Positions 16,384-50,427 of a stretch of 64,000 bases of DNA are shown here, piece after piece. Made by a program: the position numbers and the translations under genes. Origin of the DNA: Alkalinema sp. FACHB-956 (lineage in GTDB: Bacteria > Cyanobacteriota > Cyanobacteriia > Leptolyngbyales > Leptolyngbyaceae). The number at the start of each line of letters is the position of its first letter. Positions within the stretch are counted from its first letter, which is position 1. The notes under the pieces are model-generated. The model was not told the DNA's origin. It ran no database searches and saw nothing but the letters and a program-made list of their open reading frames with translations. The DNA lies in assembly GCF_014697025.1 (NCBI RefSeq), contig NZ_JACJRC010000003.1:1-64000 (forward strand). The letters are read 5' to 3'.

Positions 16384-18351
16384 ATGATTATTCCAAACTC
16401 AGTACTGGATGATCTATTTGCCGCTCTGCCTCAGGTGCGACCACAGATGTATTTCAAGTCTTCCTTGACGGCTTTGTCCCATGCCATGGAAGACCAAGTT
16501 CTGGCAGGTAGTGATAAGCCCTTAGTCATCGCTAGCTTCCAGCGCGAACGATTTTATAAACAAGAAGCCCATCGCTATGCCCGCATCGCCGAGCGAACCA
16601 ATCAGGTCTACGTCCTAGCAGCGCCAGAAACGGATTTTGCGAATCGATCGATTGATTACGAAATGGTTGCCTTTGATCCGAGCGATCCATTGAGCCAAGA
16701 GTGGCATTTGGTGGTGCTGGGACGGCAATACGCCTGTTGTTTAATCTGTAAAGAAAAGTTTCTCACCGATCCAAAAGTTCGGCAGTTTGAGCTGCATGTG
16801 GATCAATCCCGGCGCTTTGAGGGGATTTGGAGCTTCGATCGGGAAATTGTTTGTAAGTCAGCGGAACTACTCCTGCAACGCATCATTGCCTATCGACCGG
16901 AACTGGCCACAAAAGCAGGTAGGGCGCTGGGTAAGTTGAGCAAGGAAACTGCCAAAGGCTTCAAACCGCCGGTGTCCGATCCCTTTGCAGAACGGTTGGT
17001 CACCTACTTGCAAGTGGGGCAATACAAGCTCTCTAAAGCCTATCGCGCGATCGCAGAAAAGGAACGCAAAGAACGCTTAGTCAACTTGATGACCACCGCG
17101 ATTCGCCGATCGCTGGATCCCGCTGAAGTCTTGCAAGTTGCCACATTGGAACTCGGCCAAGTCCTGAAGCCCGATCGCTGTTTGATTTATCGCTGTAAGG
17201 CTGCGGATACGGTGGTACGCCTGGAACATGAATTTTTGGATCCGGGCTCAACCGAATCGGAAACGGTGGATGACAGTTCCATTCCCTCCCTGCGGGGCAT
17301 GGTCTGGGATTTGGCCATGAATCCCCTATTTCAGCAAGTGGCCCAAGCCCAGGAATCGCTATACGTTGAAGATACCCTGTCCCATCCGCTCTTAGTGACG
17401 ACCGGCAATGCCGCCAGTACTTTGCAATATCTGTTGCAGACAGGCAAGATTCGATCGTGGCTAATGGTGCCAGTGCTGTATCAGGATCGCCTCTTGGGCA
17501 TTGTTGAGTTGCATTATTGCGACTCCCACTTACTGCAAAAACACGAACTGGAATTGGTCGATGCGATCGCGGCCCAAATTGGGATTGCCCTGATTCAAGC
17601 GGAAGCCTTTGCCAACTTGGAAGATCTCAACCAGCAACTGGAAGCGTTGGAACGCACCCGCAGTAACCTGATTGCCATCACCGGCCATGAACTGCGGACC
17701 CCGCTGTCCACCATCCAAGTTTGCCTAGAGAGCTTATCCACCGACCCCACAATGCCTGCGGAGTTGCGACAGGTGATGCTCAGTTCGGCCCTCTCCGATG
17801 CAGAGCGGATGCGCAAGCTCATTCAAGATTTTCTCACCCTCTCCCGGTTAGAAAGTGGGCGGGTGGAATGGCGCATGGAACCCCAACCCCTCCAGGAATG
17901 CGTAGATTTAGCCCTCAGTAGTTTGAAAACCCGCTATGGCAGTAATTTGCCCCAAATTAGTGTTGAACTTCCCGATGAATTACCCATGGTGCGGGTGGAT
18001 GGAGAATGGTTGGTGGAAGTGTTGTCTAAACTGTTGGATAACGCTTGTAAATTTACCGATGCCAATGGAGAAATTCATGTTCAGGCACAAAATGGCACCG
18101 ATCGGCAGATGCTGGAAGTGATCGTGTCGGATACAGGCCGAGGCATTGAACCCAATCGTCTGGAACGGGTTTTTGAACGCTTTTACCAAGAAGAAGGGGC
18201 ACTGCGCCGCAGTACTGGGGGCACGGGTCTCGGTTTGGCCATTTGTCGGCAAATTATTGCAGGCTGGGGTGGCAAAATCTGGGCGGAGTCAGCAGGCAAG
18301 GATCGGGGCAGTCAGTTTCACTTTACAATGCCGATCGCGCGGGTCAGCTAA
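16384..18351 (+). CDS. DICT-GAF hybrid sensor histidine kinase
   Basis: 655 residues. Residues about 30-180 form a DICT domain (KPLVIASFQRERFYKQEAHR), a sensor module linked to light or diguanylate signalling proteins. About 225-410 form a GAF domain (RRSLDPAEVLQVATLELGQV). The transmitter follows: H-box ITGHELRTPLSTIQ with His435, N-box LLDNACKFTD, G1 VSDTGRGIEP and G2 STGGTGLGLAICRQI. It should autophosphorylate on His and pass phosphate to a response regulator, but none is adjacent. No transmembrane segment is seen, so it is probably cytoplasmic. No Shine-Dalgarno precedes ATG 16384. Confidence 0.92.
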   Translation: MIIPNSVLDDLFAALPQVRPQMYFKSSLTALSHAMEDQVLAGSDKPLVIASFQRERFYKQEAHRYARIAERTNQVYVLAAPETDFANRSIDYEMVAFDPSDPLSQEWHLVVLGRQYACCLICKEKFLTDPKVRQFELHVDQSRRFEGIWSFDREIVCKSAELLLQRIIAYRPELATKAGRALGKLSKETAKGFKPPVSDPFAERLVTYLQVGQYKLSKAYRAIAEKERKERLVNLMTTAIRRSLDPAEVLQVATLELGQVLKPDRCLIYRCKAADTVVRLEHEFLDPGSTESETVDDSSIPSLRGMVWDLAMNPLFQQVAQAQESLYVEDTLSHPLLVTTGNAASTLQYLLQTGKIRSWLMVPVLYQDRLLGIVELHYCDSHLLQKHELELVDAIAAQIGIALIQAEAFANLEDLNQQLEALERTRSNLIAITGHELRTPLSTIQVCLESLSTDPTMPAELRQVMLSSALSDAERMRKLIQDFLTLSRLESGRVEWRMEPQPLQECVDLALSSLKTRYGSNLPQISVELPDELPMVRVDGEWLVEVLSKLLDNACKFTDANGEIHVQAQNGTDRQMLEVIVSDTGRGIEPNRLERVFERFYQEEGALRRSTGGTGLGLAICRQIIAGWGGKIWAESAGKDRGSQFHFTMPIARVS

Positions 18352-18708: not shown

Positions 18709-20166
18709 TCACCAAGTCGGACTCATGACGGCCCACTCCTGCAAGCGTGATTGCAATTGTGCATTAATCGGCATTTCCAGAATCAACGCACATTTTTGGG
18801 GCGCTTCCTGGGCAAACAGCAACACATAATACTTCCCTTGGGCTCCTAGCAAATGGAGGGTTTCTCGCCCTTGGCCCGTTCGCAAATCCAGAAAATGGGA
18901 AAACCAACGGGGATCCCGACCCAGGTGACAGGCTCGATTGTAGATCGCCGTCGTCCAAATGGCTAAGGGGTAGGGGGATGGCAAACAGAGTACATTCTTG
19001 TAGATGCGATTGTAGAGCTGGTGCAACTTGAGTTCTTTGATTTCCTCATAGGGCAACATCGCCCAAACCAAAGGCACTTGCTTTTGGTAGATTTCCAAAT
19101 TACGCAGAAACGTAATCGCCCCGATCGGTTTGTCCTGGGGCCAAGTCGCCACGCGATACAACTCATCCAAAACAGAAGTCGTACCCCGACCGCGAGACGT
19201 GCTGCGACGATCGACCCCATCGGCTCCCACCAGCAAAGATTGCCGCATCAATGCCCCATTAATCCGATCGGTCAGAGAGCGATTGGCCTCATAGCGTTCT
19301 TCCAGAGGTTCCAGGACTTTCAGAATCTCGATCGCGGTTTGGGGCCGATCCTTAGGATTTTTGGCCAAGCAACCCATGACCAGGGCTTCCAAATTCTTGG
19401 GAAAGGTGGTTCCCGGTGCAACCTCCGTTAAGGTGCGAGGGGCATGGGACGTATGGGCGCGATACCATCCTGCAAAGGAATGGGTATCCGCATGGATCGG
19501 CAATTTCCCCGTCAACATTTCAAACATCATGACGCCCAAGCTATAGATATCCGATCTGACATCTAATTCCCGGCCTTCCATTTGTTCTGGTGAGGAATAC
19601 ACCATCGTCCCCATGTAGGTACTGGTCTGGTTGCTATCCTCCTGCAACAGTTTAGAAATGCCAAAATCGAGTACCTTGACCAATTCACCTAAACTCTGAT
19701 CCTGCGTCACCAGCATATTGCTGGGTTTAATGTCTCGGTGAATGATTGGACAAATGGTTCCGTCAATATCAATGCCTTGATGGGCGGCCTGCAATCCTAG
19801 GACAATTTGCCGAATTAAAGAGAGGAATCGGGGTAGGGGCAGGGGTTGTCGTCGGATAATGTCGCTGAGGCTTTCTCCCTGCAAATATTCCATGACGTAA
19901 TACGGAACATCCTCATGGTTGACGTCATAGTCCGTCACCCGCACAATGTGAATGCTTTTCTGTCCCAATTGGGCACAGATACTCGCCTCCGTCCAAAAGC
20001 GATCGCGCATTCTACGATTCAGTAAAGTCTGCGCCAAAAATTTAACCGCAACGACGGCTCCTAGGCGCGTATCTTTGGCTTTGTAAACCCGTCCCATGGC
20101 CCCCTTGCCTATCAACTCCAGCAGTTGATAGCGGTTATTCAGAAGATTGCTGTTGGGTTCGGTCAT
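18709..20166 (-). CDS. Serine/threonine protein kinase
   Basis: 485 residues. The kinase domain (about 12-270) is complete: glycine loop IGKGAMGRVYKA, VAVK Lys42, catalytic loop IIHRDIKPSNMLV (HRD at 143-145), DFGIS and the SPEQ equivalent of APE, with a DIYSLG helix. The C-terminal 200 residues form a soluble region without a recognised domain or membrane anchor, unlike many cyanobacterial PknB-like kinases. The ATG at 20166 (MTEPN) places the kinase domain close to the N-terminus; a GTG at 20187 is possible. No phosphatase gene is adjacent. Confidence 0.92.
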   Translation of the reverse strand: MTEPNSNLLNNRYQLLELIGKGAMGRVYKAKDTRLGAVVAVKFLAQTLLNRRMRDRFWTEASICAQLGQKSIHIVRVTDYDVNHEDVPYYVMEYLQGESLSDIIRRQPLPLPRFLSLIRQIVLGLQAAHQGIDIDGTICPIIHRDIKPSNMLVTQDQSLGELVKVLDFGISKLLQEDSNQTSTYMGTMVYSSPEQMEGRELDVRSDIYSLGVMMFEMLTGKLPIHADTHSFAGWYRAHTSHAPRTLTEVAPGTTFPKNLEALVMGCLAKNPKDRPQTAIEILKVLEPLEERYEANRSLTDRINGALMRQSLLVGADGVDRRSTSRGRGTTSVLDELYRVATWPQDKPIGAITFLRNLEIYQKQVPLVWAMLPYEEIKELKLHQLYNRIYKNVLCLPSPYPLAIWTTAIYNRACHLGRDPRWFSHFLDLRTGQGRETLHLLGAQGKYYVLLFAQEAPQKCALILEMPINAQLQSRLQEWAVMSPTW

Positions 20167-20187
20167 GGGGATCAACAAAGTGTGCAC

Positions 20188-20952: not shown

Positions 20953-23529
20953 TTAGTTCAACGTTTTGACCAACTGTTTAATCTTCGATTCCTGCTTGTC
21001 CATCACTTCCTCCGGGAAAATGAGATCGATCGTCACTGTCCCCCGATCGCTCCCATCACCATAACCCACGCGGTCAACTTGGGCTAACAGCCGTCGGGGT
21101 TGTACGTCACTGGATTCTTGACTGATCAAGAGCCCCACTAAGGGTTGCCCCAGGTTGAGTTCTTCAATATCCGTCAGACTATTGTGCAGACTGTTGGCAG
21201 GCAGTTCCAAGCGCAGACTCCGTCCGCCAATTTCCACCGCCCGCGCACCGTAGAACGCACCTTTCCAATACAACTGGGCAAAGGCATTGATCGATTTGCG
21301 TACCCGCATCCGGCTGGTTTCGGGCAGACGGACTTGGAAAGCTCGCTGGAGACTGGTGGTGATGAATCGAATCGAAGCTAGCGGATCATCGGACTGTTCC
21401 CGCCGTTGCGAATACCACTCCTTCACGTCGGAGTAGATGACGATCGCCAAAGCATCCAGTTGCGCTTGGGTCGGGTTGACAAAATCTAACGTCACCACCA
21501 GTTGGGTGTCGGTCACCGGCAAGGCTCGGACAACTTGCCCCTTCAGAAAAGTCCGGGTCCCGTAGTCCCCCACCAATTCCACTTCCACCACATCCAGCAA
21601 ATCCGCCCAGGAATCCAACACAACTTGGCAGCCGGTTTCACTCACATTCAAGGTATTGCCTTTGAGGGTGTTGTCCTGACTGTAGATCACAGCCGCTAGC
21701 TTGCGATCGAGACGGTGCGATCGGCGTAATTGCGGTTGCTCAAAAGCCACTAGCACCGATGCCACAATCAGAATCAAGTTAAAGAAGCTCCAGAACAAGT
21801 TCACCAAAACCGCTTCTGCGGTGTCGGGCCGCAACCATAGCCAAAAGGGAGCCGCAACGATCGAGGCAACGACCAAAGCTGCGGCAAACACCAAACCCCG
21901 CGACGACTGCCAGTCAAAGCTGCGTTTCGTCACGGTCAACCCCTTATCAGTCACGTTGAACGATCCCAATTTCGGGTTAATCAACGCCAGCAAGGTCACA
22001 ATACCCGCATGGAAGGACATGGCGAATTCATAGATCTCATTCCAGAAGGAAAATCGCACATGTTTATAGGTAATAAAGTTGGCGTAGGTAGAGATGATGA
22101 AGTGGGGCAACGCATAGGCCAAGGTTTCCAGTCCCAACCCGCGAATCGGGTTGATGCCAAACACCAAGAACAGGGCCGGTGCGATCGCATACATCAACCG
22201 GGGAAAGCCAAAGAAAAAGTGGGACGTGGCACTGAAATAGCAAATCCGTTGGGGGATGGACAGTTTCAACTTGGGATTGAACAGGGGATTTTCAATCCGC
22301 AAAATTTGCGCCATTCCCCGCGCCCACCGCACCTGCTGACCGACATAGGCGGAAAACTTCTCCGGAGCCAGTCCCGCCACCATGATTTTGTCGTAGTAGA
22401 CGGATTCATAACCGAGGGCGTGCAGCCGCAGAGAGGTGTGACAGTCCTCCGTCACGGTTTCCACTGCAATGCCCCCCACCTCCAGCAAATGGGACTTGCG
22501 CACGATCGCCGCTGAGCCACAGAAAAAGGCCGCATTCCAAAAGTCGTTACCCTTTTGCAGCACTTTGTAGAACAACTCGTTGCCGACGGGAATCTTACCG
22601 CCGGTTTGTAAGTTCCGCTCAAAGGGGTCGGGGTTATAAAACCAGTGGGGCGTCTGGACGAGGGAAACCTTAGGTCTGCTGAAAAAGCCCACGGTTTCCT
22701 TGAGAATGTTGCGGGTGGGAATGTGGTCACAGTCCAGAATCAACACCAGTTCTCCCGGTGTGCGCCGCAGAGCCGTGTTGATGTTGCCAGCCTTGGCGTG
22801 GTCGTTGTTATCTCGGGTCAGCAGCGTACAGCCTAACTCGGTGCACATTTTCCGCAGCTCTTCCCGGCGGGCTTTGAATTTCTCTGCCCGTCCATCATCC
22901 AGGATATAAATGTTCTTTTTGGGATATTCGATCGCCAAAGCCCCTAGGGTTGTCTTGCGGACAATCTCCACATCTTCGCTGTAGGTGGGAATGTAAATAT
23001 CCACCAAAGGCAACCGATCTTCAGGGATACCCGAAATATCAATGGGCTTACGTTCCTTGAGTTTCAGGGTTTGGAAATAGGATAAGCCTAGGGTGAGAAT
23101 GGCATACAGTTCCGCTACATAGAGCAGAATACTAAACACCGCATCCACCCAGCCGCCTGTGAGGTTGAGGGTGTAGTTTGTGCGGTAGTAGAGATAGCGA
23201 AAGGTGGTAATCAGACTTAGCCAGACGAGGAAAAGATGGAGATATTCACTGGTGCGTCCAGCAGCCTGCTTTTGCTCTACCGCAGTCACGACCCAAGCCA
23301 ACACGACAAGGATGACCGCCACAATGCCCTGCTGCGGAATCGTCAACGGCGTAATCACCAGCGGCAGGGAAAATAGCGCGATAAAGCCCATTAGCCAGAC
23401 CAGTTGACTGCGGCCAAAGCGACCAAACACCCGATCGAAGAAATTGGGAATTAAATCCACCAACCACTCAACCACCTGGGCACTTTTGCTCTGGGGGCGT
23501 TTCGGCGAAGGATTAGACATGGAACTCAT
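20953..23529 (-). CDS. bcsA: Cellulose synthase catalytic subunit
   Basis: 858 residues. An inner-membrane processive GT2 enzyme that polymerises glucose from UDP-glucose. It has N-terminal membrane helices, then the catalytic motifs YILDDGR, LILDCDHIP, TEDCHTS and QQVRWARGMAQI (the Q-x-x-R-W product site). A second membrane block follows, and a PilZ domain (RRSHR as RxxxR, then NVSETG) that should bind c-di-GMP and release autoinhibition. ATG 23529 overlaps the bcsB stop as ATGA and has GGGAGAG upstream, so translation is coupled to bcsB. It is the last gene of the operon. Confidence 0.95.
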   Translation of the reverse strand: MSSMSNPSPKRPQSKSAQVVEWLVDLIPNFFDRVFGRFGRSQLVWLMGFIALFSLPLVITPLTIPQQGIVAVILVVLAWVVTAVEQKQAAGRTSEYLHLFLVWLSLITTFRYLYYRTNYTLNLTGGWVDAVFSILLYVAELYAILTLGLSYFQTLKLKERKPIDISGIPEDRLPLVDIYIPTYSEDVEIVRKTTLGALAIEYPKKNIYILDDGRAEKFKARREELRKMCTELGCTLLTRDNNDHAKAGNINTALRRTPGELVLILDCDHIPTRNILKETVGFFSRPKVSLVQTPHWFYNPDPFERNLQTGGKIPVGNELFYKVLQKGNDFWNAAFFCGSAAIVRKSHLLEVGGIAVETVTEDCHTSLRLHALGYESVYYDKIMVAGLAPEKFSAYVGQQVRWARGMAQILRIENPLFNPKLKLSIPQRICYFSATSHFFFGFPRLMYAIAPALFLVFGINPIRGLGLETLAYALPHFIISTYANFITYKHVRFSFWNEIYEFAMSFHAGIVTLLALINPKLGSFNVTDKGLTVTKRSFDWQSSRGLVFAAALVVASIVAAPFWLWLRPDTAEAVLVNLFWSFFNLILIVASVLVAFEQPQLRRSHRLDRKLAAVIYSQDNTLKGNTLNVSETGCQVVLDSWADLLDVVEVELVGDYGTRTFLKGQVVRALPVTDTQLVVTLDFVNPTQAQLDALAIVIYSDVKEWYSQRREQSDDPLASIRFITTSLQRAFQVRLPETSRMRVRKSINAFAQLYWKGAFYGARAVEIGGRSLRLELPANSLHNSLTDIEELNLGQPLVGLLISQESSDVQPRRLLAQVDRVGYGDGSDRGTVTIDLIFPEEVMDKQESKIKQLVKTLN

Positions 23530-26105
23530 GAAGACTCTCCCGCAACACGCTTGAGGTACAGTTGGGCAACGCCATACAGCAGAATCGATAGTCCAATAAT
23601 GCCCGAGGGCAGCAACCACCAATTATTTTGGAAGACTCGTCGCATCCGGCTAATGGGGTTAAGGTTCTCTAAGCTCCGTTGTTCCGATTGCCGGAAGAAC
23701 TGGAACTGGTAGCCATTGCTGTCGTAGGGGGAGGTATTGGGATTGGCCGCAATCAGGGCGGTGTCGTCTTGCAATTGGTAGAACCAACTGTCATTGCTCA
23801 GGACATCCTGCACCTGTTTGAGGCCGCCTTCGGTTTGGGCCGTCAGCGCCAGCACAACCCGATCGTCATTCCAGGGAGACAGCACACTTTGAACGACGCC
23901 ACCGCTATCTGGCAAGGTTTGGATTTGGGTTTGCTTAAATTGGCGGGTGAAGGCGTCCAGTAACTTGAAGCCGCCTTTTTCCTGAAACACTTCCGGGAGC
24001 GGGAAGCGATCGCGGGTGCCAATCCCGACCAGATGTTTGAATTTTTTGGTGGAGTCCTGAAGTTTGCTAGTGGTATACACTTCCTGCTTCACCGATTTCG
24101 CTTGGCTGATACGCCCCATGCGTTCACTCAGTTTGAGCAGCGTCATCACTTCCGTTTCCGAAGGCTTATCCGGCAGCACGATCGCCATGCGGGATAAATC
24201 CTGGGGCGAGGCAAAGGGATAACCCGTGGTGAATAGCTTCAGATCCGGCAGTTGCACGGAAATCTCGCGGTTGAGATTAAAACTACTATCTTTGTGCAGG
24301 GTACCCCACAGTTGTTGATCGGTAATTTGGCCGCACTGCTCAGGGACTTTCGGCACGAGTTTAAAATCCACCCCAATTCTGGAAGTCGGCGTGATCAACT
24401 CTGCGGGGAGATCGACCACAAAGGTTTCCTGACTCGCCCCATTATCATTCGTCAGTTTTTTACTACCGATGCCAATGCCATCTACAAAAATAGAGACGGT
24501 TGATTTACTGGTATCAACTTGGCCACCATAGCTGTAGCGGACGGTCATTGTACTGCCGCGAATAAAGCGATCGTCGGGCAAGGCGCGAAAATCAAAATCA
24601 ACCCGGGGAGCCGAAGACCCACGCACCGTTACATCTTGAAAGGGTTTACCATCATTGCCCCGCAAATCGCTGAGATTAAACTGGCTCCGACCAGGGAGAT
24701 ATTTCGGCCAATCGCGCACAGCGGGAGCAGGCAATTCGGGAATCTTATCGCTGGTGACGAGGATGAACTGTCCGGTGCCGATCTGACTGTCCTGGGTTTG
24801 CACCAAAAACTGAGCGGCTTTCGTGACGCCAGCAGGACTGTTGCCGGAAATGACCAGCACTGGAACACTGCCATTTTTCAGTGTGCTGAGGGCGAGGATT
24901 CCGACATCATCCGGCAGGGGCGCTTTGTCCGCTTGCAGGAATTGCTTGCCGGAAACCGCTAAGGGCAGCTTTAAGGACTTCAGTAACGGTTGTTCTTCCG
25001 GCGTACCAATGACGACTAAGCGATCGTTCCATTTGAAATTTTTCGCTTCCTTGACCAGGGCGGTTTCCATCGGGCGGAAGTCCGCAAGGCGACCCATATA
25101 GCTGTGAAAGCGGCTGGCTGCTTGCAACCATTCTGGGTTAGTCTGGCTCGGCATCAGGTAGTTAATCCGGGCGGAATCCAGAGCCAGGTTATCAAAAAAG
25201 GGATAGGGATAGCGGCTGAAGTCCAGGGGAAATCCCTTGGTTTGGTAGTCCATGACGACCTTGGAATCGGGCAAAACTTCTGTCCAGAGCTTGTCGTCTT
25301 GCGCACTGGAACAATTGGTATTGTTTTGCTGCTGGGCTACGAGGGTGATTTCGTTGTAATCCTGCAACAGATTGGCGGGAATTTCAACGATCGATTCGCC
25401 AATTTGGGCTGGCTTCAAGTTGAGGGGGATGCTGCCCACGCTGGTGTCATTGACCCGCACAATCAAGTTGGATTTCCCAGCGGCCAAGTCAGGCGAGTGG
25501 CGAAACCGCACGAGAACCTTGGCGGTTCTAACCTGCCAGGTGCGGGGTCGCGTAAACCCCAGGCGAGATTCCGCGTAAACCCCTTGGAGACGAAAGCGGT
25601 TCCCAATCACAGGGCTGCGGTTAAATTCCAAAACATAGCGATTCAGACCGCTTAGACTGGCAACTTCTGTCGTGGCTTTGTCGTCTTCCAGTTTGTCCTT
25701 CGTGTCCTTATTAGCATCGGTCGGTTTGTCCGATTCCGGTTTATCGGTGGCATCGGGCTGGGTTGGAGCGGATTCGATCGGGCGACTTTCCACCGGCGTA
25801 CTGTCCTGGGCCGGAGCCGGAACCGGCTCGGCAGGGGCGGGTTCTGGAGCCGGCTGGTAGACAGGGGCAGGCGGTGGAGCGGAGGGTAGTTTGTAATTCC
25901 GAATTACCTGATCTTCCTGCTGTTGAATGCCTTGGCTGAAGGCAACTCCGCTGGGATCACTGTGGGATAGCAGTACGACCAGTCCTGTGAGCAGGCCCAG
26001 GCCGCCGAGGAGGCACGATCGTAAAACGAGGGGATTCCAAGTACGAAGACGGCGGAACAGCGATCGTCGGTGGGATGGAGAAAGATTGGGATAGCGCTTT
26101 TTCAT
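23526..26105 (-). CDS. bcsB: Cellulose synthase periplasmic subunit BcsB
   Basis: 859 residues. A membrane-proximal N-terminal hydrophobic segment (about 28-48) is followed by a Pro/Ala/Asp-rich linker (70-150). Paired jelly-roll carbohydrate-binding and flavodoxin-like regions form the body (RFRLQGVYAESRLGFTRPRT, VDFDFRALPDDRFIRGSTMT). A C-terminal transmembrane helix (WWLLPSGIIGLSILLYGVAQ) contacts BcsA in known complexes. BcsB guides the nascent glucan through the periplasm. The linker is longer than in proteobacterial BcsB. It overlaps bcsA by 4 bases and follows the GH8 gene by 101 bases. Confidence 0.9.
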   Translation of the reverse strand: MKKRYPNLSPSHRRSLFRRLRTWNPLVLRSCLLGGLGLLTGLVVLLSHSDPSGVAFSQGIQQQEDQVIRNYKLPSAPPPAPVYQPAPEPAPAEPVPAPAQDSTPVESRPIESAPTQPDATDKPESDKPTDANKDTKDKLEDDKATTEVASLSGLNRYVLEFNRSPVIGNRFRLQGVYAESRLGFTRPRTWQVRTAKVLVRFRHSPDLAAGKSNLIVRVNDTSVGSIPLNLKPAQIGESIVEIPANLLQDYNEITLVAQQQNNTNCSSAQDDKLWTEVLPDSKVVMDYQTKGFPLDFSRYPYPFFDNLALDSARINYLMPSQTNPEWLQAASRFHSYMGRLADFRPMETALVKEAKNFKWNDRLVVIGTPEEQPLLKSLKLPLAVSGKQFLQADKAPLPDDVGILALSTLKNGSVPVLVISGNSPAGVTKAAQFLVQTQDSQIGTGQFILVTSDKIPELPAPAVRDWPKYLPGRSQFNLSDLRGNDGKPFQDVTVRGSSAPRVDFDFRALPDDRFIRGSTMTVRYSYGGQVDTSKSTVSIFVDGIGIGSKKLTNDNGASQETFVVDLPAELITPTSRIGVDFKLVPKVPEQCGQITDQQLWGTLHKDSSFNLNREISVQLPDLKLFTTGYPFASPQDLSRMAIVLPDKPSETEVMTLLKLSERMGRISQAKSVKQEVYTTSKLQDSTKKFKHLVGIGTRDRFPLPEVFQEKGGFKLLDAFTRQFKQTQIQTLPDSGGVVQSVLSPWNDDRVVLALTAQTEGGLKQVQDVLSNDSWFYQLQDDTALIAANPNTSPYDSNGYQFQFFRQSEQRSLENLNPISRMRRVFQNNWWLLPSGIIGLSILLYGVAQLYLKRVAGESS

Positions 26106-26206: not shown

Positions 26207-27451
26207 TCATGGCACACCTGACAATTCAGTAAATTGGCCCTGGAGTGCCTGGGCGATCGCCTGGGGCGGCAATAGCCCAAACCACACTAAATTTTGGGTA
26301 TAGTACGCTTTATCGTTGTCCCAAAAGCCACCTCGGTAACGGGGCAGCAATTTTTGTTGATAAATCTCCTGTGCTATGGTGGGATTGACTAACTGAAACG
26401 CCGCATAGAGCATGCCGTACTGGGAGGTCGCATCGTACTTGACCAAGGGATTTCCCTGAAGATCAAGCTGGGCAGGGATCTTCTTTTGCGATCGCCAGAG
26501 GGATTCGATCGTCGCCAGATGGCTTTGCAAATATTGCGTGGCCCTTGGTTCGTTGTACAGGAACCCATCCAGCGCCACCCGCCACCAAACTCGACTGGCA
26601 TCAAAACCGTATAGGCTCAGCACCGGGCTGGGTTTAACCAAGGCTTGGTATTGCCCGGTTTCCGCATCGAGGGCGATCCAATCACTGGGTAAGCCCGCGC
26701 TAGAAACTGCGGTGGAGGCTTCCAAGATTTCATAACTAGTCTCCACAAGCGCTAACCAATCCCGTGACTTATCCACCTCAGCGAATAGGCGAAAGGCATA
26801 GGGCGCAAGGTAGGAGGGATTCAGTCGCACCAAATTTCCCTGGCGAAAGGCAATCATCGGCCCCGGCAGCAAATAGCGTTTGCCTTTAACCACCGTGGTT
26901 GAGTGCAGCCAAATGTCCTGTAGCTTCGTTTTCGCAAGGGCTAAATATTCCGGTTTTTGCCAGCGTTGGGCCGCCAGAATTAGGGCAAAGCAGGCATCAA
27001 TATCGGCATCCACCGCAAAGTTGGGATCCAACTGTGTCCATTGCCCATCCTTCTGTTGGCCCCATTTCCAAGCCCAGAGGGAATCGAGGGGTTGCTTTTG
27101 CGGGGTTTCGCGCCGGAGATTTTGCTCGGCCCAGCGCAGAGTTTGCTCAAAGGTGGTGGGATCATTGGCGAAGACCGATCGCCAGAGGGCGTAGGCTTGA
27201 CCTTCGGAGGTGGATTTTTCGTCCCCTTCCCAATCGATCACACGGCCATCTCCCTGGATAAAGCGTTTGCGATAGGATTCCCAGCTTTCCTGGAGAAGAT
27301 TACGGCTATTGGGCGCAGGACTCACCGTAATCGCCGTATGGGGCACTGGTTTGAGGGTCGGTTTACTGGGTATCGAGGGCGATCGATCGCAGCCAGCCAG
27401 ACCAAACCAAGGCATCACTAAGAGAATCGTGAACAGGACAACAGGACGCAT
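26207..27451 (-). CDS. bcsZ: Glycosyl hydrolase family 8 endoglucanase (BcsZ-like) lipoprotein
   Basis: 414 residues. The signal sequence ends in a GLAGC lipobox (Cys21), so it is lipid-anchored. The GH8 domain has DEKSTSEGQAYALW with the general acid Glu83 and FAVDADIDACFALILA with the family's conserved Asp. BcsZ hydrolyses beta-1,4-glucan and is needed for proper cellulose export and quality control in other bacteria. It starts 2 bases after the TPR gene stop, a clear operon join. Most BcsZ proteins are soluble periplasmic; a lipoprotein form is a variation. Confidence 0.88.
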   Translation of the reverse strand: MRPVVLFTILLVMPWFGLAGCDRSPSIPSKPTLKPVPHTAITVSPAPNSRNLLQESWESYRKRFIQGDGRVIDWEGDEKSTSEGQAYALWRSVFANDPTTFEQTLRWAEQNLRRETPQKQPLDSLWAWKWGQQKDGQWTQLDPNFAVDADIDACFALILAAQRWQKPEYLALAKTKLQDIWLHSTTVVKGKRYLLPGPMIAFRQGNLVRLNPSYLAPYAFRLFAEVDKSRDWLALVETSYEILEASTAVSSAGLPSDWIALDAETGQYQALVKPSPVLSLYGFDASRVWWRVALDGFLYNEPRATQYLQSHLATIESLWRSQKKIPAQLDLQGNPLVKYDATSQYGMLYAAFQLVNPTIAQEIYQQKLLPRYRGGFWDNDKAYYTQNLVWFGLLPPQAIAQALQGQFTELSGVP

Positions 27452-27453
27452 GG

Positions 27454-29844
27454 TTAGTACCTTTCCCAGGGTGGTTGGAAGCCCCGCTGCTGGAGATAGC
27501 CTTCCTGGATTTCCTGTTGGCGACGCACCAAGCTGGGATCGGTCAGGCTGCCTTGGGTCATTTGCTGTTGCACCTTCAGCGCCTCCAGCCGATCGAGGGC
27601 CTGCAACGGTTTTCCCGAAGCCGCACTCAAATCCGCCAGGGTTCGCTGCACGGTCGTATTTTCCGGTTGCAGCACCTGCACCAGGGTGTACAGGCGTTCG
27701 GCGGAGGCAAACTGGCGCTGCTGGAAGCGCACCCCCCCCAGGGCCGAGATGGCGTCAATATTCTCCGGTTGCAGGTTCAGCACCGCCGCATAGGCTTGAT
27801 CGGCTTGGTCTAAGTTGCCGAGGGCTTCTGCGAGCCGACCGCGCAGAAACAAGTTACTGACCAGGTTGCCGCTTTGCATCTGGGCCAGGAGCCGATTAGC
27901 CATGATCTGCGCCTGGACAGGATTGCGCGCCGCCATGACCTGAATCCAGCGCACCTGCACATCGGCATTACTGGGATTGGCCGCGACCAAGGCCGCATAG
28001 AGCGGCTCGCGGTAGGCGCGGGCGGGTAGTAAACCCACGAGGGTGTATAACTCCTGGGGCGTATTGGCGGGGCGGAATTGCAGGAATTGGTTAATCACGG
28101 CATCGGCGTCAAACTCGCTGATCAGCTTGGCCTGGTAGGCGATCGCGGTGCGTCCCAGACGAATTGACCAGTCATTGGGATTGCGCGCCACTAGTTGGTC
28201 GTAGAAGTACAATGCTTCCTGGGGCCGATTTTGGGCCAGTCGAATGCCCGCCAGTCCCCGCATCGCTCCGTTGATCAAATCAACATCCTGGGTGCCGCTG
28301 GCGAGTAAGGCTTGGTACCGCTGGGCCGCGAATTCCAAGTTGCCCTCCCGGCGATCGATGTCCGCTAGCAGAAGTTCAACGGCGAGATCCTGGGCTCCTT
28401 GGGGGGTGGCGCGGTAGGTTGCTAAGGCGGCGCGGGCATTGGCATAGTCCCCCCGATCGATCAACAGTTGCGCCATGCGGAAGTGGAGAAAGGGCTCGTT
28501 CACACCCGCTTGCAGCAGGGACTGATAGACCGGTAACAACTCTGGATCGGGTTCAATGCGGGTCAGCGCTTGGGCGATCGCCAACAGTTGGGCCGGGTCA
28601 CTGGGCAAGGGATTGAGCAGCCCTCTCAACCGTTGGCTCACTTCCGCTTTGGGCAGGCTACCCAAGCGGCTTTCCAAGGCCAGCAGTTGCAGGTTCAATA
28701 TCCGATCGTTGGGATTTTGCTGCACCAGTTGTCGGAACAGCGCCAGCGCCGTCTGCTCCTGCCCCCGAATGCCGCTCAGCACATCCGCCACTTCCCGAAT
28801 TAACGACGGGGAAGGATTGGGGGTCGCTTGCAACACCTGCTGGTAAAGAGTTGCAGCCTCCGCTTGCAAGTCAGGACGGGCCTGCTGCCGACCAATTTCG
28901 TTTAAGGCTCGGGCTAGGGGAAGACGGGCTTCGTCGCGGCCTCGCAGGGGATCTAAGGTCGCTAATGCCTGCGCCGCTTGCTGGTTGGCGAGATAGGCTT
29001 GGGCCAGTTCCGATCGCACTTGGATGGCGTAGTCATTCAACTGTTTCGGTAACTGAGCCTCCAGGACTTGCACGGCTTTGCTGGGATTGCCCGTTTCCCG
29101 CAGGGCTCGCCCATAGGCGATCGTGGCGTTCCCCGTAATGGCCTTACCGGACACCTGGCGATATTGCTCAAACAGTTCCAGCCCCCGTTGGGAATTACCG
29201 CTGTAGGTGTAAATTTGCGCCGCCCCCAGCAACACATCCGCCGTCGGTTTACCCGCCCGCAACACCTGCTCATAGTCCGCCAGGGATTCACTAAATTTTC
29301 CCTGGTAACCGTAGAGCAACGCCCGCTGGGCCCGAGCTTCCAGATCGTTGGGTTGCAGGGCCAGCAGTTGGGTCAGGGCTTCGATCCCCTTGGCTTGCCA
29401 CTCCGGCTTGAATCCTCCCAAAATCCCGATACTGCGCAGCGCCAAAACGTTTTTCGGATCTTGATCCAAGACCTTTTGGTAGGCCGCAAAGGCTTGGACA
29501 TCCTTGCCCGCCCGCCGGTAGGCGATCGCCAGTCCTAACTTAGCCTCGGTGGAATTGGGATAGCGCTGAATGGCCTGTTGAAAGGTGGCGATCGCCTGAT
29601 CGACCAAGCCTTGACTCAGTTGGGTATAGCCCTGCCGCACTTCAGTGGGAACGGCTTCTGATTGGGCGACAACGGTTTCCGCAGCCGGTGCTTTGGATGA
29701 AGCATTGGTGGTTTGCGCGATCGCGGAGCTAATGGTCAGGCATGGCAGGAGCGGCAATCCAACCAGAATTGCCAAACATGAGGTTGTCCAGGAAACCCGG
29801 TGGCTCTGCCCCGGGGGCTGCCCTGTGGAATGGGAAAGTGTCAT
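27454..29844 (-). CDS. TPR-repeat periplasmic scaffold, BcsC-like without barrel
   Basis: 796 residues. An N-terminal signal segment (SCLAILVGLPLLPCLTISSA, then IAQT) precedes about 15 or more TPR units (for example QGLVDQAIATFQQAIQRYPN and NLDQADQAYAAVLNLQPENI). It corresponds to the periplasmic TPR half of BcsC, which links the BcsA/B complex to the outer membrane, but it stops without the C-terminal 16-strand barrel. The preceding gene encodes a separate barrel. It is co-transcribed with bcsZ (2-base gap). Confidence 0.85.
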   Translation of the reverse strand: MTLSHSTGQPPGQSHRVSWTTSCLAILVGLPLLPCLTISSAIAQTTNASSKAPAAETVVAQSEAVPTEVRQGYTQLSQGLVDQAIATFQQAIQRYPNSTEAKLGLAIAYRRAGKDVQAFAAYQKVLDQDPKNVLALRSIGILGGFKPEWQAKGIEALTQLLALQPNDLEARAQRALLYGYQGKFSESLADYEQVLRAGKPTADVLLGAAQIYTYSGNSQRGLELFEQYRQVSGKAITGNATIAYGRALRETGNPSKAVQVLEAQLPKQLNDYAIQVRSELAQAYLANQQAAQALATLDPLRGRDEARLPLARALNEIGRQQARPDLQAEAATLYQQVLQATPNPSPSLIREVADVLSGIRGQEQTALALFRQLVQQNPNDRILNLQLLALESRLGSLPKAEVSQRLRGLLNPLPSDPAQLLAIAQALTRIEPDPELLPVYQSLLQAGVNEPFLHFRMAQLLIDRGDYANARAALATYRATPQGAQDLAVELLLADIDRREGNLEFAAQRYQALLASGTQDVDLINGAMRGLAGIRLAQNRPQEALYFYDQLVARNPNDWSIRLGRTAIAYQAKLISEFDADAVINQFLQFRPANTPQELYTLVGLLPARAYREPLYAALVAANPSNADVQVRWIQVMAARNPVQAQIMANRLLAQMQSGNLVSNLFLRGRLAEALGNLDQADQAYAAVLNLQPENIDAISALGGVRFQQRQFASAERLYTLVQVLQPENTTVQRTLADLSAASGKPLQALDRLEALKVQQQMTQGSLTDPSLVRRQQEIQEGYLQQRGFQPPWERY

Positions 29845-30077
29845 CGAATCCCTAGCCTAAATCTCTTAAGGTCAGTTATTGAAGGAAAGCCAGCCCATGT
29901 GCCCACCCAGAGTCTTCACTGCTTGAGAGTATTGACTGCCCTCGTCTTGACTAGCGCTTAAGTCAAAAAAATTATCTCAGTTAACCAGAATGGGCATCAG
30001 GGGTTGGGTGACAGTTGGCGTATTGCTTTGGCGTATTGCTATAGAGGCGGTAATCGGCGGATGGCGTCGTACTACAA

Positions 30078-30115
30078 CTAGAGCATTCCAGCTAGAGCAT
30101 TCCAGCTAGAGCATT
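30078..30115. repeat. 14-bp tandem repeat reaching the barrel-gene stop codon
   Basis: Unit CTAGAGCATTCCAG at 30078-30091 and 30092-30105, then a partial copy to 30115. The stop codon of the next minus-strand gene is at 30114-30116. Confidence 0.85.
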
Positions 30116-32879
30116 ACGGTTGATTGACTAAACCTTTTGGGGTGATATCAAATTCCGTTTTCAGCCGGAACCCAGCCACGATGTCGGAAAAATCATTGCG
30201 CCCTTGCAACGAGAAGCCTAGGCGTAGGTTGGGCAAGAAACGGAAGTCGTAAAACACCTCTAGGGCATCCGGTTTACGTTCACCAGCTTTGGCTCGAAGT
30301 TTTTCGTTCGAGAGCCCACGACCGTAGGCCACCCCTAGCCGATCGTCCTGGGAAAAGACATCCAGGAAGCTAATTCCACCGCTAAAGGTGTCGCCCCCTT
30401 CGCCCAGATCGATGTTGTTGTAACGTCCGTAGCGGGCAAAGGCTCCCATCTTGCTGCCGGGGAAGAAAATTTCTGCGTTCACGCCGTAGGCTTCCTCGCG
30501 ATCGCCGCGAATCACGCCGCTTTGGCCATTATCTCTCGGCAGTTCAAAAATACCCGCTGGCCCATCCTTGGATCCCGCTTCCCGGCCCGTGGCATAGGTT
30601 CCGCGAATAATCGTATTGCCATAGCGCAGCCCCAATTCCCCGGCGAAACCGTCAAAGGTAAAGTCACCTAAGCCCCTAGCTGACGAAAAGGCCGCCGCCT
30701 TCGCTTCGATATTGTCGGTCAAGTTCCAGTTCACCAATAGACCTGGGCGGGAAGACAACCCCACCGCAGACAGGGCGGGATTGGTTTGGAAAATTGAGTT
30801 AAAGAAATGGGATGCGCCATCTTTCGCAAAGCTGTTGCGATCGAAATAGGAAGTTAAATCCAGTTGACCCACGGAAAACCGTAGATTAGGAATTTCCGGC
30901 AGGGAAGTTGCTAGAAACAGTTCATTCACGTTAAACCCATCATTGGGGGTATCCGTGAAGGCATTGCCGGTGCTGAGGTCAAGGCTGGCCCCAAACAACA
31001 CCCGCGAACTCAGGGGATAGATCCCTTGTAAACGGGCGCGCGCAGAACTTTCATCCGCTTGAAAGAGATACGTTCCTTGCAGTGTCAGTTTGGGTTGCGT
31101 CAACGCCGTACTGCGGAATAGGGGGCGATTGGCCGTTTGCAATTTCTGGGCCGCCCCCGGTTCCAGCAGCACCCCTTCCCGATCGACGGGTGCGCGCAGC
31201 GGTTGGTTCGTGATTGTTCCCTGCTGGGCCAAGGCGGGAGCCCCGTAAATGCCTGGATTGACCTGCTGCACATTCACGGGCGCAGAAAGGGGCGAAATGA
31301 TCCCGATCGACGGCATGGGTTGGACATAGCCCATTTGTGGAATGACCGGATAGGCGGTAGTCACCGGTGCTCCTGGTGCCATCGGTGCTCCTGGTGCCAT
31401 CGGTATTGCCGGAGCCATTGGCATGACAGGTGGCGATTGCATGAGGTAGGGATTTGCCATCGCTGGATAGCCATAACCTGGGGCGGGATAGGCACCAGGC
31501 ACACCGGGATACAGGGGATAACCACTGGGAGGCATCCCCATGGGGTAAGCATTCTGAGCAAGCCCTAATGGAGCCGTCGGATACGGGGGGGTGCCCACGG
31601 GATAGGCTCCTACCGGATAGCCGTAGGGATTGGGAGGGGCAGCGGGGGCAGCGGCATAGGCTGGTGGCGCATAGGCTGGTGGTGCATAGGCTGATGGCGC
31701 ATAGTTCCCTGGCATGGCTCCATAGGGATAACCCATGGGGACTTGGGCAAGATTCGGCGCGATCGGATTCGGTGCAATTGCCGTTGCTGGGCCACCCATG
31801 GGGGCTGGATAGGCATAGCCGCTGGGCAAAGATGAGGCAACCCCAGAAGGAATAGGCGTCGCGGGCACAGGCAAGCGATTTACATTGAGGGCTCCAGCAG
31901 TTTGGACGTAGGGGTTGGGTTGGGAATAGGGGGTCTGGGGATAGGGCTGGGCAGCGGGATAGGGCGAGAAAGAGCGATCGCCCATTGGCTGACCGTAACC
32001 CGTCGGTTGGCCGTAACCCATTGGCTGACCGTAACCCGTCGGTTGGCCGTAACCCATTGGCTGACCGTAACCCATTGGCTGACCGTAACCCATCGGCTGA
32101 CCGTAACCCATCGGTTGGCCATAACCCATCGGTTGGCCATAGGGATAGGCAGGGACACCGGTTGGATAGGAATAGCCGCCCATGGGCAAGCCAGGATTGA
32201 CGCTGGGCAGAATGGGATTCGGCAGAGCGTAACGCCCGTTAGCAGGAGGCATGGGTGTTGGAGACGGTTGACCGATCGCCTGAGCCACGAGCAAAGGTTG
32301 AGGTGTCGTGGTTAGGTTAACGGCCTGCACATTAGCGGGTCGGTTAACAACTAAAAAGGCCGGTTCTACGGGAGCAAGGGCGCGTTCTCTAGTCCCCAAA
32401 TCCTGGGCAAGGGTCAATTGACCTGCCAAGCTAGAAACGAAACTGGCTTCACTCAGGGCTGCTTGGGACATTGGCACTGAGGGCTGTGGCTGCGATCCCA
32501 ACCCACTAGGCCGGAACACTTTCGCAATCTGGGAGCCAGGATGGGGGGCAGGAGCAGCAGAGTCGATAACCAGTTGCTGAGAATCCACTGGCTGAAGAGA
32601 TTGTGTGGATCGAGCTTGAGTCTCGAGCTGAGGTGATGTTGGAGTGGTTGCTTGGGATAGAGTTACAGAGGTTGATGGAGATTGGGGGAGCAGGGCCACC
32701 TGAGTGGATTGCGATCGATCGGGGTGCGAGACGTGCAGTGGACTAGCTTGGGTGGGCAGGATATCCGTATAGGTGAAGAGCATCAGTCCAGCCAAGAGGG
32801 CACGGCCTCGCAAACGTCTTCGATCGGGGTGTACCCCTCGAGCAATTTTGAAAAGGAATAATTTGGATACATCTGCCAT
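30114..32879 (-). CDS. Outer-membrane beta-barrel protein with Gly-Tyr-Pro repeat region, cellulose operon
   Basis: 921 residues. A signal-like segment ([20 protein letters not shown]) and a long low-complexity region (about 40-570) rich in Pro, Gly, Tyr and Ala come first. The latter includes about ten copies of MGYGQP. The C-terminal 330 residues have the alternating pattern of an outer-membrane barrel ([50 protein letters not shown]). The barrel resembles porin-type domains of cyanobacteria. Its place at the head of the cellulose operon, with a barrel-less TPR gene next, suggests it is the export pore. ATG 32879 has AGG five bases upstream; a GTG at 32894 is less likely. Confidence 0.75.
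31984..32140. repeat. 18-bp coding tandem repeats (MGYGQP / TGYGQP)
   Basis: About ten 18-bp units on the minus strand code for M/T-GYGQP hexapeptides. Third-position variation is low, so copy number is probably unstable. Confidence 0.9.
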
Positions 32880-33504
32880 GATTGCCTGCCTCACACCGTA
32901 TCTAGATCTACATCAATGGATTTGTTCTGCACTCTAACCCGCGCGGCTTTAATCTGCGCTCGCCAAGGTTTGACTCAATTTTGCCTGGGATCTTCGCGAT
33001 CGCACCACCTTTTGGTGATTGAATGGCTAATTTCTGCAAGCAAGTCGATTTATCCCTTAGAACTGCGAATGTACACTCTGGATCCTCCTATAAAACTTGC
33101 TCCAAGACTTTACCGCGCCACACAAGACCCGCTGCACAAGACCCTTAGAAAGCGATTTTTCAATAATCGGAGGATTTTTAGGGATGACTTATCCGTAAAT
33201 CAACGGATACTGCTGTTAAATCCCTACTACGTTTTAACCTAAAAGCCCGGATAAATCCTCTTGACATTGATTAAATTCTCTATGTGTTTACAGACTTGTC
33301 AAAATCTGACGATGTTAGTGTAGAACGATGTTGGTGTAGAACGATGTTGGTATAGAACGGTATTGGTGCACTTGGTTATGGGTGCACTCGGTTACTGATG
33401 CACTCGGTGCAAACGAGTCAGGAAGCCGACCCACCGCTAAGAAGAGAACAGTATTGGTTTGCAATCTCACGGCCCCTTTCCCACTCACCCTAGATGACGG
33501 AAAC
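32880..33504. other. Divergent spacer with 16-bp repeats
   Basis: This spacer holds the start regions of the cellulose operon (minus) and the lipoprotein gene (plus). A 108-codon plus-strand frame at 32916 lacks a start signal and family likeness and is not called. A 16-bp unit ACGATGTTGGTGTAGA is repeated at 33309-33360. No clear promoter is recognised. Confidence 0.45.
33309..33368. repeat. 16-bp tandem repeat, about 3.5 copies
   Basis: ACGATGTTAGTGTAGA (33309), ACGATGTTGGTGTAGA (33325), ACGATGTTGGTATAGA (33341) and a diverged fourth copy. Upstream of the lipoprotein gene. Confidence 0.88.
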
Positions 33505-41880: not shown

Positions 41881-44106
41881 ATGCTACTTTCTCCAGATCA
41901 ATTCTCCTTAATTCAAGCAAATCTTCAAACCAAACAGTATTCTGGACTGATCGATCGCTTAGAAGGTTGGATTCAAGAAAAGCCAACTTGTCAGGTTTAC
42001 TATTGGTACTTGGGATTAGCCTTTCTACTCAGCCATCAAGAAGAAGAAGCCCAATTCACTTGGTTATCGACATTGGCGGAGGCAGGAGATGCGGAGGAAG
42101 AATGGCTGAATGAATTGGTCGCCGTTATTGAGGCAGAGGCCCAACGAAAAGCTTCATTCAGTAGCTTGGAGAATACACAGGATGATGTTTGGCTATTGCG
42201 TCAACATCTGCGCTCCATTTGTCCGACCAATCTATCAAACTTATTGGGCATCATTCAATTAGCCGCCCAGCAGGATCACTGGGTTCCAGAAACCGACTGT
42301 GTTGCAGAAGCGATCGACCTTTTAGCAACCTGTCCCAGAAATCACTTGAATGCATCCTTAGCGCTGGAAACGATGGGCCAGCTATTGCAACACGCTCCCA
42401 TGCATCCAGAGTCGGCTAATTTTGTCCGGGCTTGTATTCCCCATGTACCAGACTTGAATGCGTTAATCCATTGTTTGTTTCCCGCTGCGATGCGGATTGC
42501 CCATTCCGCCCGCAATCCCAAGCTTGCAGCACAATTGGCAGAAGCCTACCTGGAAGTTGATCCCGACAACCAAGAATTTTTGGGACAATTGGTGACGTTT
42601 TATCAGGATGCAACGGACTACGATACAGGCATCGCAACGGCAAAGCGTTACTATGCGGCTGTAGAAGGCTTGGTCAAGCAAATTTTTGCCAGCCATTTGA
42701 TTTTGCGAGGGCTATTGAATGCGGGTGGTTATTGGGAGGAAGCGATCGCGGCTCTCCAGCGGCACCAGCAACTTCTCCAATGCTTATCGATCGATTCCCT
42801 GCAAGACCTTGCCTCCGTTCATGTATTGCGATTGCTGACATCAACCTATTTTTTGCCCTATTTTCAAGATACGCTGGATAACTGCCAGTTACGGCACCAC
42901 GTCGTGGAAATGGCGCAAAATCAACTGCGGGCGTTGCATGCTGATACCGTTACTCGATATCACCAGGGACATCAGCAACGACGGGCAAGGGCCGATCGCA
43001 ATCGCCCAAAACTCAAGATTGGTTACCTCTCCCACTGCATGGGGCGTCATTCCGTAGGCTGGCTGGGTCGTTGGCTGATTCAGCACCACGATCGCGATCG
43101 TATTGGACTCTACGGCTATTTCATCAACGAACGATTGGGTGACTCTTTACAATCTTGGTATGTAGAACAGTTTGATCAGGCTTACTTCCTCGATCGAGAT
43201 TTTGGAGATAGTAGCCAACGCATGGCCGACCAAATTCATCAAGATGAAATTGATATTTTGGTGGATCTTGATAGCATCACCCTGGATGTCACCTGCGAAA
43301 TCTTAGCCATGAAACCAGCCCCCATTCAAGTGACTTGGCTTGGCTGGGATGCGATCGGGATGTCTGCAATCGACTACTTCATTGCCGATCCCTATGTTCT
43401 CCCGGAGAATGCCCAAGCCTATTACACAGAGAAGTTATGGCGTTTACCTGAAACCTATATTGCGGTGGATGGATTTGAAGTAGGCGTACCAACGCTACGA
43501 CGATCGGAATTAGAAATTCCAGAAGATGCAATGGTTTATCTGACGACGCAACGAGGATACAAGCGCCACCGAGACACCGCACGATTGCAACTGAAAATTA
43601 TCCATGGTGTTCCTAACAGCTATCTTCTGATTAAAGGATTTGCTGATGATCAGGCGATTCAGAAATTTTTCTACGAATTGGCTGACGAAGTTGGGGTCGA
43701 TCGCGATCGGCTACGGTTCCTGCCCAATGCAGCCTCGGAGGCAGTTCACCGAGCTAACTTGCGGATTGCAGATGTTGTGCTAGATACCTATCCCTATAAT
43801 GGTGCGACGACAACCCTAGAGACGCTATGGATGGAAGTGCCGATCGTGACTTGGGTGGGACAACAATTTGCTGCCCGCAATAGCTACACCATGATGATGA
43901 ACGCAGGCATTACCGAGGGCATTGCTTGGAGTGCTGAGGAATATGTGGAATGGGGAATTAAATTAGGAACTGATTTAGATCTCAGAAAGCAGGTTGTCTG
44001 GAAACTGCATCAGTCTAAACAGTCCTCACCACTCTGGAATGGCCAACTCTTTGCCCAGGAAATGGAAAAAGCCTTTGCTGCCATGTGGGAGCAGTTTGTT
44101 GGGTAA
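41881..44106 (+). CDS. SPINDLY-type O-GlcNAc transferase-like glycosyltransferase (GT41)
   Basis: 741 residues. Residues 1-360 are helical with degenerate TPR-like repeats. Residues about 380-740 form the GT41 catalytic region: LKIGYLSHCMGRHSVGWLGR, IDILVDLDSITLD, APIQVTWLGWDAIGMSAIDY and DVVLDTYPYNGATTTLETLW followed by VPIVTWVG. GT41 enzymes glycosylate Ser/Thr of proteins, mostly in the cytoplasm. Lying just after pilA and before surface-glycan genes, it may modify the pilin or another surface protein; this is inference. A 20-bp direct repeat starts directly after the stop codon. Confidence 0.88.
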   Translation: MLLSPDQFSLIQANLQTKQYSGLIDRLEGWIQEKPTCQVYYWYLGLAFLLSHQEEEAQFTWLSTLAEAGDAEEEWLNELVAVIEAEAQRKASFSSLENTQDDVWLLRQHLRSICPTNLSNLLGIIQLAAQQDHWVPETDCVAEAIDLLATCPRNHLNASLALETMGQLLQHAPMHPESANFVRACIPHVPDLNALIHCLFPAAMRIAHSARNPKLAAQLAEAYLEVDPDNQEFLGQLVTFYQDATDYDTGIATAKRYYAAVEGLVKQIFASHLILRGLLNAGGYWEEAIAALQRHQQLLQCLSIDSLQDLASVHVLRLLTSTYFLPYFQDTLDNCQLRHHVVEMAQNQLRALHADTVTRYHQGHQQRRARADRNRPKLKIGYLSHCMGRHSVGWLGRWLIQHHDRDRIGLYGYFINERLGDSLQSWYVEQFDQAYFLDRDFGDSSQRMADQIHQDEIDILVDLDSITLDVTCEILAMKPAPIQVTWLGWDAIGMSAIDYFIADPYVLPENAQAYYTEKLWRLPETYIAVDGFEVGVPTLRRSELEIPEDAMVYLTTQRGYKRHRDTARLQLKIIHGVPNSYLLIKGFADDQAIQKFFYELADEVGVDRDRLRFLPNAASEAVHRANLRIADVVLDTYPYNGATTTLETLWMEVPIVTWVGQQFAARNSYTMMMNAGITEGIAWSAEEYVEWGIKLGTDLDLRKQVVWKLHQSKQSSPLWNGQLFAQEMEKAFAAMWEQFVG

Positions 44107-45916: not shown

Positions 45917-46004
45917 AGGAATTACAGTAGGAATTACAAAAGAGATGGTTTAACTATCGCGATCGCACAGGCGCTATCAAAACAAATCGACTAGTTATGG
46001 AAAA

Positions 46005-47537: not shown

Positions 47538-47666
47538 GACAGAAAGGGGCACTCTGAAAATGGAACTTCAAACCAGATATTCAACCATTCACGGGACAGC
47601 ATAACCGCCTAGTCAAAGTATGCCTTTTGTGGATGGGAAAATGAACATTCTCAGTCAAATCGTCAT

Positions 47667-50396: not shown

Positions 50397-50400
50397 GGAG
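50356..50400. repeat. 15-bp repeats across the ligase start codon
   Basis: GAATCGGGCATAGAG (50356), GAATCGGGCATGGGG (50371) and GATTCGGGCATGGAG (50386). Each unit contains a minus-strand ATG followed by Pro-Asp/Glu-Ser, so each copy is a potential start. Confidence 0.88.
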
Positions 50401-50427
50401 ATTACCTGACAGGGCAGTAGCAGCAGA

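Follow-up and report, generated by a model that had tools for sequence, protein, structure and literature searches.

A candidate two-piece Bcs exporter in cyanobacteria, with a porin-related barrel and a separate TPR protein in the place of BcsC

Through which outer-membrane exit does cellulose leave a cyanobacterium whose bcs operon encodes the synthase, BcsB and an endoglucanase, and no recognizable BcsC? The question is raised by a five-gene operon of Alkalinema sp. FACHB-956, located in the window analyzed here, by which we mean the whole stretch of 64,000 nucleotides (contig NZ_JACJRC010000003.1). According to the accessible text of PMC11379886, 19 TPRs are predicted in E. coli BcsC ahead of a 16-stranded barrel; TPR 1 binds BcsB, and the link between the periplasmic part and the barrel is flexible. 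A 2025 review describes cellulose secretion in cyanobacteria as poorly defined and, in the portion consulted, gives only a TolC model (PMC12430437). A phylum-wide survey, in its available part, reports that the BcsC_C barrel domain is missing from all cyanobacteria studied and omitted BcsC for that reason (PMC4594306), and the excerpt consulted of another study deals with BcsC loss in some alphaproteobacteria, not with a barrel-TPR arrangement (PMC7112194). In the literature searched, listings and partial texts of openly accessible papers, we found no description of a barrel-TPR pair. With a probability of roughly three in four, we propose that the locus is a Bcs operon in which BcsC has been replaced by a porin-derived barrel and a separate BcsC-like TPR scaffold, organized like the AlgK-AlgE pair. 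The operon thus offers candidates for the channel, for its scaffold and for a short docking peptide in cyanobacterial cellulose export.

In the ORF list of the window, the five genes follow each other on the minus strand in the order barrel, TPR, GH8, BcsB and BcsA, and the coordinates that an earlier note on this DNA had assigned to the TPR and barrel genes (27454-32879) are correct:

30114..32879, minus strand: barrel gene, the first of the operon; 921 aa from the ATG, with a signal-like N-terminus (by eye), a linker and a C-terminal barrel
27454..29844, minus strand: TPR gene; 796 aa, modeled with about 41 helices and without a barrel
26207..27451, minus strand: GH8 endoglucanase, BcsZ-like (Pfam PF01270, E 2.6e-46)
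23526..26105, minus strand: BcsB (PF03170, E 2.4e-101, 340 bits against a cut-off of 21), which the BcsA gene adjoins
20953..23622, minus strand: BcsA cellulose synthase with a PilZ domain (TIGR03030, 704.8 bits against a cut-off of 699.1)

The barrel ORF spans 30114..32894 on the minus strand with an in-frame ATG at 32879, and the TTG start given to BcsA is a mechanical choice. BcsA carries the motifs DDG, DxDxxP, TED, QxxRW, RxxxR and NxSxxG, which we take to be those of BcsA synthases. The GH8 protein scored 179 bits against the NCBIfam BcsZ model, under its cut-off of 299.

The TPR protein had many TPR family matches along its length (Pfam and NCBIfam), and no barrel family appeared among the matches listed (25 of 31 for Pfam, 25 of 26 for NCBIfam). 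Its AlphaFold2 model, built from 30 sequences with a mean pLDDT of 85, was helical over residues 67-786, with about 41 helices and no strand anywhere. The earlier note had stated that the TPR gene ends without a barrel, and both the model and the matches listed agree with this; a barrel hidden at the end of the protein was ruled out by the all-helical prediction. Kinship of the TPR protein to BcsC by sequence or fold was also considered, but the generic TPR matches were uninformative.

The barrel is encoded at the end of the first gene and contains one highly conserved stretch:

30117..31127, minus strand: barrel domain of 337 aa with 16 modeled strands, a relative of OprB and SLH-OprB porins
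30750..30860, minus strand: conserved barrel stretch, domain residues 90-126, between modeled strands 5 and 6

The AlphaFold2 model of this domain (46 sequences) had 16 predicted strands, a mean pLDDT of 79.9 and a pTM of 0.78, in line with the barrel that the earlier note had read in the first gene of the operon. Its nearest solved fold was OprB (4gey; Z 21.9, rmsd 3.5, 295 aligned residues), chitoporin VhChiP was also near (Z 19.5), and the nearest solved folds were porins. BcsC was absent among the 50 fold-search matches listed, which is still compatible with a fold shared with BcsC. At the sequence level, Pfam OprB matched 37 of 46 barrel domains at E ≤0.01 (best 2.4e-12), the copy from the window being without a match. 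The whole barrel protein of the window had no Pfam or NCBIfam match, including BCSC_C (PF05420) in the Pfam scan, and its PDB sequence matches did not go below E 1.9; when the barrel profile was searched against PDB sequences, only ferritin chains came back (E 0.8), which we took as chance. Profile comparison (hhalign) with 22 cyanobacterial porins gave a probability of 99.0 with 24% identity over 217 columns, and the two groups have the loop motif FxDxNxFAxD...NP in common. The porin that seeded this 22-sequence set comes from the genome of the window and has SLH and OprB domains. By its OprB fold, the Pfam OprB matches and the profile match, the barrel is either derived from the SLH-OprB porins or sister to them, and in sequence it is not a BcsC barrel. 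The operon barrel differs from its SLH-OprB homologs in having no SLH match, in its place within a bcs operon and in its single genome copy, versus 12 matches in the same genome to one SLH-OprB porin (query included). Domain residues 90-126 had a mean conservation of 0.91, versus 0.74 for the remainder of the barrel, and low pLDDT at residues 93-110. The region between strands 5 and 6 is presumably the position of the constriction loop L3 of 16-stranded porins.

No BCSC_C match (PF05420) was found in the genome of the window, which is 99.98% complete, while the E. coli control matched. Among 388 genomes of the class, BCSC_C was detected in seven; all these matches were partial and none exceeded 25.6 bits, four lay above the 23.5-bit cut-off, and none came from the genome of the window. 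The earlier note had named beforehand what would count against its proposal, namely a barrel that groups with ordinary solute porins together with a loss that leaves cellulose export unaffected, or another BcsC elsewhere in the genome: the grouping, with sugar porins, is what the OprB fold and family indicate, whereas the BCSC_C search turned up no other BcsC. An AlgE-type barrel was rejected as well, since neither the barrel protein nor the rest of the genome matched the AlgE family (PF13372, Alginate_exp). Within the operon, the Pfam scan detected no other outer-membrane channel and no HlyD-type adaptor in the five proteins; two TolC-type proteins are encoded in the genome, on other contigs than the operon.

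Among the known systems closest to this one are BcsC and AlgK-AlgE. Like BcsC of E. coli and Komagataeibacter, as far as the texts consulted describe them, the pair accompanies BcsA, BcsB and GH8 and has about 20 TPRs and a predicted 16-stranded barrel. Unlike BcsC, it consists of two separate ORFs with the barrel first; this barrel is of the OprB/SLH-porin group, lacks BCSC_C and has a long low-complexity linker, and the TPR protein has a conserved C-terminal tail. In the alginate system, a separate TPR protein and barrel, AlgK and AlgE, serve one synthase-dependent polysaccharide (PMC9734138), and BcsC is said to unite the functions of both (PMC4594306); the accessible parts of these two papers describe AlgK as a lipoprotein and list it with Sel1 repeats. 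The operon resembles AlgK-AlgE in keeping TPR scaffold and barrel in separate proteins, and it differs in that the barrel lacks PF13372 and that no Sel1 was found for the TPR protein among the matches listed (25 of 31 for Pfam).

The pair is not particular to this genome. A strong barrel match was found in 109 of the 388 genomes of the class and a strong BcsB match in 105, with both in 103 (p 7e-84, ignoring phylogeny). Six genomes had the barrel without a strong BcsB and two had BcsB without the barrel, all eight being drafts of at least 520 contigs. Weak matches were set aside for these counts, which concerned 18 of 127 genomes for the barrel (E 8.7e-8 to 8.2e-4) and 19 of 124 for BcsB (E 9.6e-18 or weaker). 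About 150 places were listed for each of the two proteins, the totals being larger; among the 150 BcsB places listed, 113 lay within 10 kb of a listed barrel, six had their nearest same-contig barrel more than 10 kb away, and 31 were on contigs without a listed barrel. The survey of gene order in cyanobacterial bcs operons, proposed in the earlier note, covered 99 barrel loci (19 of 20 fetched stretches, L057 being without a barrel, plus the best 80 of 203 relatives), among which at least two contigs, judged by their length, were counted twice (L041 = L118 and L045 = L099). The TPR gene directly followed the barrel gene in 97 of them, and the other two stopped at a contig edge. No barrel-TPR fusion was seen in the 99 loci. 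Where 9 kb of downstream sequence was available (86 loci), TPR was present in 86, BcsB in 85, BcsA in 84 and GH8 in 77. The loci ranged from Leptolyngbya-like forms to Nostoc, Calothrix, Scytonema and Symploca; the same gene pair in dozens of genera indicates that the arrangement is not due to chance. Hence the two-protein exit channel put forward in the earlier note appears well supported by the genomics, with BcsB in 103 of 109 barrel genomes, TPR next to the barrel in 97 of 99 loci and no BcsC barrel found in the genome of the window.

The barrel-TPR gap was zero or negative in 66 of 97 loci and exactly -4, a 4-nt overlap, in 53, which suggests translational coupling. The gap of 269 nt in the window is untypical of these relatives, so the coupling found in them is missing in the window copy. 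This gap contains 13-nt and 14-nt tandem repeats at 30015-30040 and 30075-30116, the last of which reaches the stop codon of the barrel gene. In the three genomes that carry a pair of operons, the two copies had diverged in all four genes together. Mirror-distance correlations over 79 loci ranged from 0.89 to 0.94 for every pair of the four genes and were lowest for barrel and TPR; being high for all pairs, they do not single out these two.

The likeness of the barrel to uptake porins, which normally let solutes diffuse, counts against an export role. It could instead be an accessory sugar porin that passes cello-oligosaccharides released by GH8 across the outer membrane while cellulose exits elsewhere, as its OprB family matches, the OprB and chitoporin structures among its nearest folds and the GH8 gene in 77 of 86 loci would fit. 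We regard this as unlikely, because it is the TPR gene, not GH8, to which the barrel gene is coupled, the operon has no other outer-membrane channel and the genome has no BcsC match. Moreover, the nine of 86 loci without a GH8 match at threshold, where a divergent GH8 could have been missed, still have barrel and TPR, and eight also have BcsB. Export through TolC, with the barrel and TPR proteins only organizing the envelope or stabilizing BcsB, is more doubtful still. The XcsAB-TolC model of Thermosynechococcus, as far as the review text consulted describes it, likewise concerns cyanobacterial cellulose export (PMC12430437), and the two TolC-type proteins of the genome would be at hand; yet that model needs an HlyD-type adaptor, whereas this operon has neither HlyD nor TolC and has BcsB instead, the TolC-type genes are on other contigs, and the barrel tracks BcsB through the class. 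Least probable is a pair that exports some other or modified glucan in place of plain cellulose: BcsA scores barely above the cellulose-synthase cut-off (704.8 versus 699.1), yet it does exceed this TIGR03030 threshold, has the BcsA motifs and PilZ, and is accompanied by BcsB and GH8. The operon logic favors a two-piece Bcs exporter over the accessory porin and the TolC exit.

Such an exporter would need its two pieces to find each other, and the end of the TPR protein is a candidate for this role:

27457..27486, minus strand: C-terminal tail RGFQPPWERY; family motif RG(F/I)QPxW, proposed docking peptide

In a set of 92 TPR proteins, which includes the window, omits TPR proteins of 600 residues or fewer and has start codons set by a script rule, RGFQPxWE occurred in 86, RGFQPxW in 89 and RG(F/I)QPxW in 91. 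The last 16 residues had a mean conservation of 0.82, against 0.44 for the preceding 20. A DNA pattern for RGFQPxW(E/D) was found at 129 places in 100 of the 388 genomes, and the reversed-pattern control at none. For 119 of these places, a barrel lay 1-5 kb upstream on the same strand, at a median distance of 2.3 kb; the barrel was present in 99 of the 100 genomes (p 2e-79, ignoring phylogeny). The motif was first read off the TPR proteins and the pattern then searched genome-wide, so that this search tests specificity and not discovery. Ten of the 109 barrel genomes were without the exact pattern, at least partly via allowed variants; in one of them (G374, locus L044) the Trp is followed by Q. 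A conserved C-terminal peptide on an arm that meets a channel would be a natural docking signal, with the barrel as its putative partner. In a Nostoc indistinguendum MAG (L105), the TPR frame seems to enter the end of BcsB and the tail motif is lost, which appears to be an internal deletion or an assembly error.

The region that precedes the barrel domain is of another nature:

31128..32879, minus strand: N-terminus and linker, 584 residues before the barrel domain

In the earlier note, this was a Pro/Gly/Tyr region of roughly 500 residues that may line the pore or span the peptidoglycan. By composition it is shorter, about 340 residues: only 60-residue segments starting at residues 201 to 481 reached 35% P+G+Y, which delimits approximately residues 201-540, and residues 211-545 contain 24% P, 14% G and 12% Y. 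Its DNA includes 18-nt tandem units at 31981-32132. Among 93 relatives with a closed start, the region before the barrel measured 144-731 residues (median 295), and P+G+Y was at least 30% in 16 and below 15% in 12. Lining of the pore as a general role was therefore rejected, since length and composition vary while the barrel is conserved. This variability suits a disordered tether, and spanning the peptidoglycan is a possible role. No SLH match was found in the barrel protein of the window nor in 10 full-length relatives. By eye, a motif like E-D-x-L-I-Q-Q-x-S-G-x-A recurs in otherwise dissimilar linkers (L060, L062, L064, L067, L073, L081 and L130).

BcsA is known to make its glucan under c-di-GMP control, and BcsB to receive it. 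In the two-piece exporter, BcsA would make the glucan and BcsB would take the chain on. The TPR protein, with about 20 helical hairpins, would correspond to the periplasmic arm of BcsC; by analogy with E. coli BcsC, its conserved N-terminal TPRs may meet BcsB and its superhelix may guide the chain. The RG(F/I)QPxW tail would dock on the partner barrel from the periplasmic side, and a recruited 16-stranded OprB-type porin would form the outer-membrane exit, with the conserved loop at the L3 position as a putative gate or constriction. The long N-terminal region may act as a disordered tether of free length, as its variability suggests, and GH8 would trim the glucan as BcsZ does. The proposal builds on the gene content, the near-obligate pairing, the absence of the BcsC barrel, the predicted barrel fold and its ancestry, and the conserved tail. 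For the class as a whole, we think it fairly probable that an OprB/SLH-type porin was captured as the exit for a beta-1,4-glucan, that a conserved peptide tail ties it to a free TPR arm, and that it replaces BcsC in nearly all cyanobacteria with a clear BcsB, an uptake porin thus having become a polymer exporter. If so, a solute porin was turned into an exporter of polymers, and the barrel gene could be used as a marker of BcsB-type cellulose producers among cyanobacteria.

Several loci depart from the common organization. In Allocoleopsis franciscana PCC 7113, the locus on plasmid pMIC7113.02 (L174) is rearranged, yet barrel and TPR genes overlap by 4 nt; BcsB and a family 2 glycosyltransferase are divergent from the pair, with a WecB/TagA glycosyltransferase between. 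In this one annotated record, the barrel is annotated as a hypothetical protein. Calothrix parasitica NIES-267 has a barrel-TPR pair without bcs genes within 10 kb downstream (L114) and a complete operon at another locus (L124). In one genus (L057; genomes G162, G169 and G355), BcsB lies about 28 kb from the nearest same-contig barrel, and the stretch from G162 has BcsB and BcsA. Furthermore, 19 genomes of families f5, f6, f14, f16 and f26 have a weak, divergent BcsB and no barrel match; their BcsB-type system may be a divergent one that uses another exit, or they may make a different polymer.

The surroundings of the operon in the window were also inspected. Neighboring genes were read by eye from their translations as petA and petC, which suggests a cyanobacterial origin. 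Downstream of bcsA and on the same strand is a protein kinase gene (18709-20187), and beyond it, on the opposite strand, a DICT-CHASE6-GAF histidine kinase (16384-18351); both are possible regulators. Genes with FkbM-type methyltransferase, Wzy_C and bacterial sugar transferase domains occupy 44216-51930 on the minus strand, beside a GT41 gene at 41881-44106, and together they perhaps form a second, Wzy-dependent polysaccharide locus near the cellulose operon.
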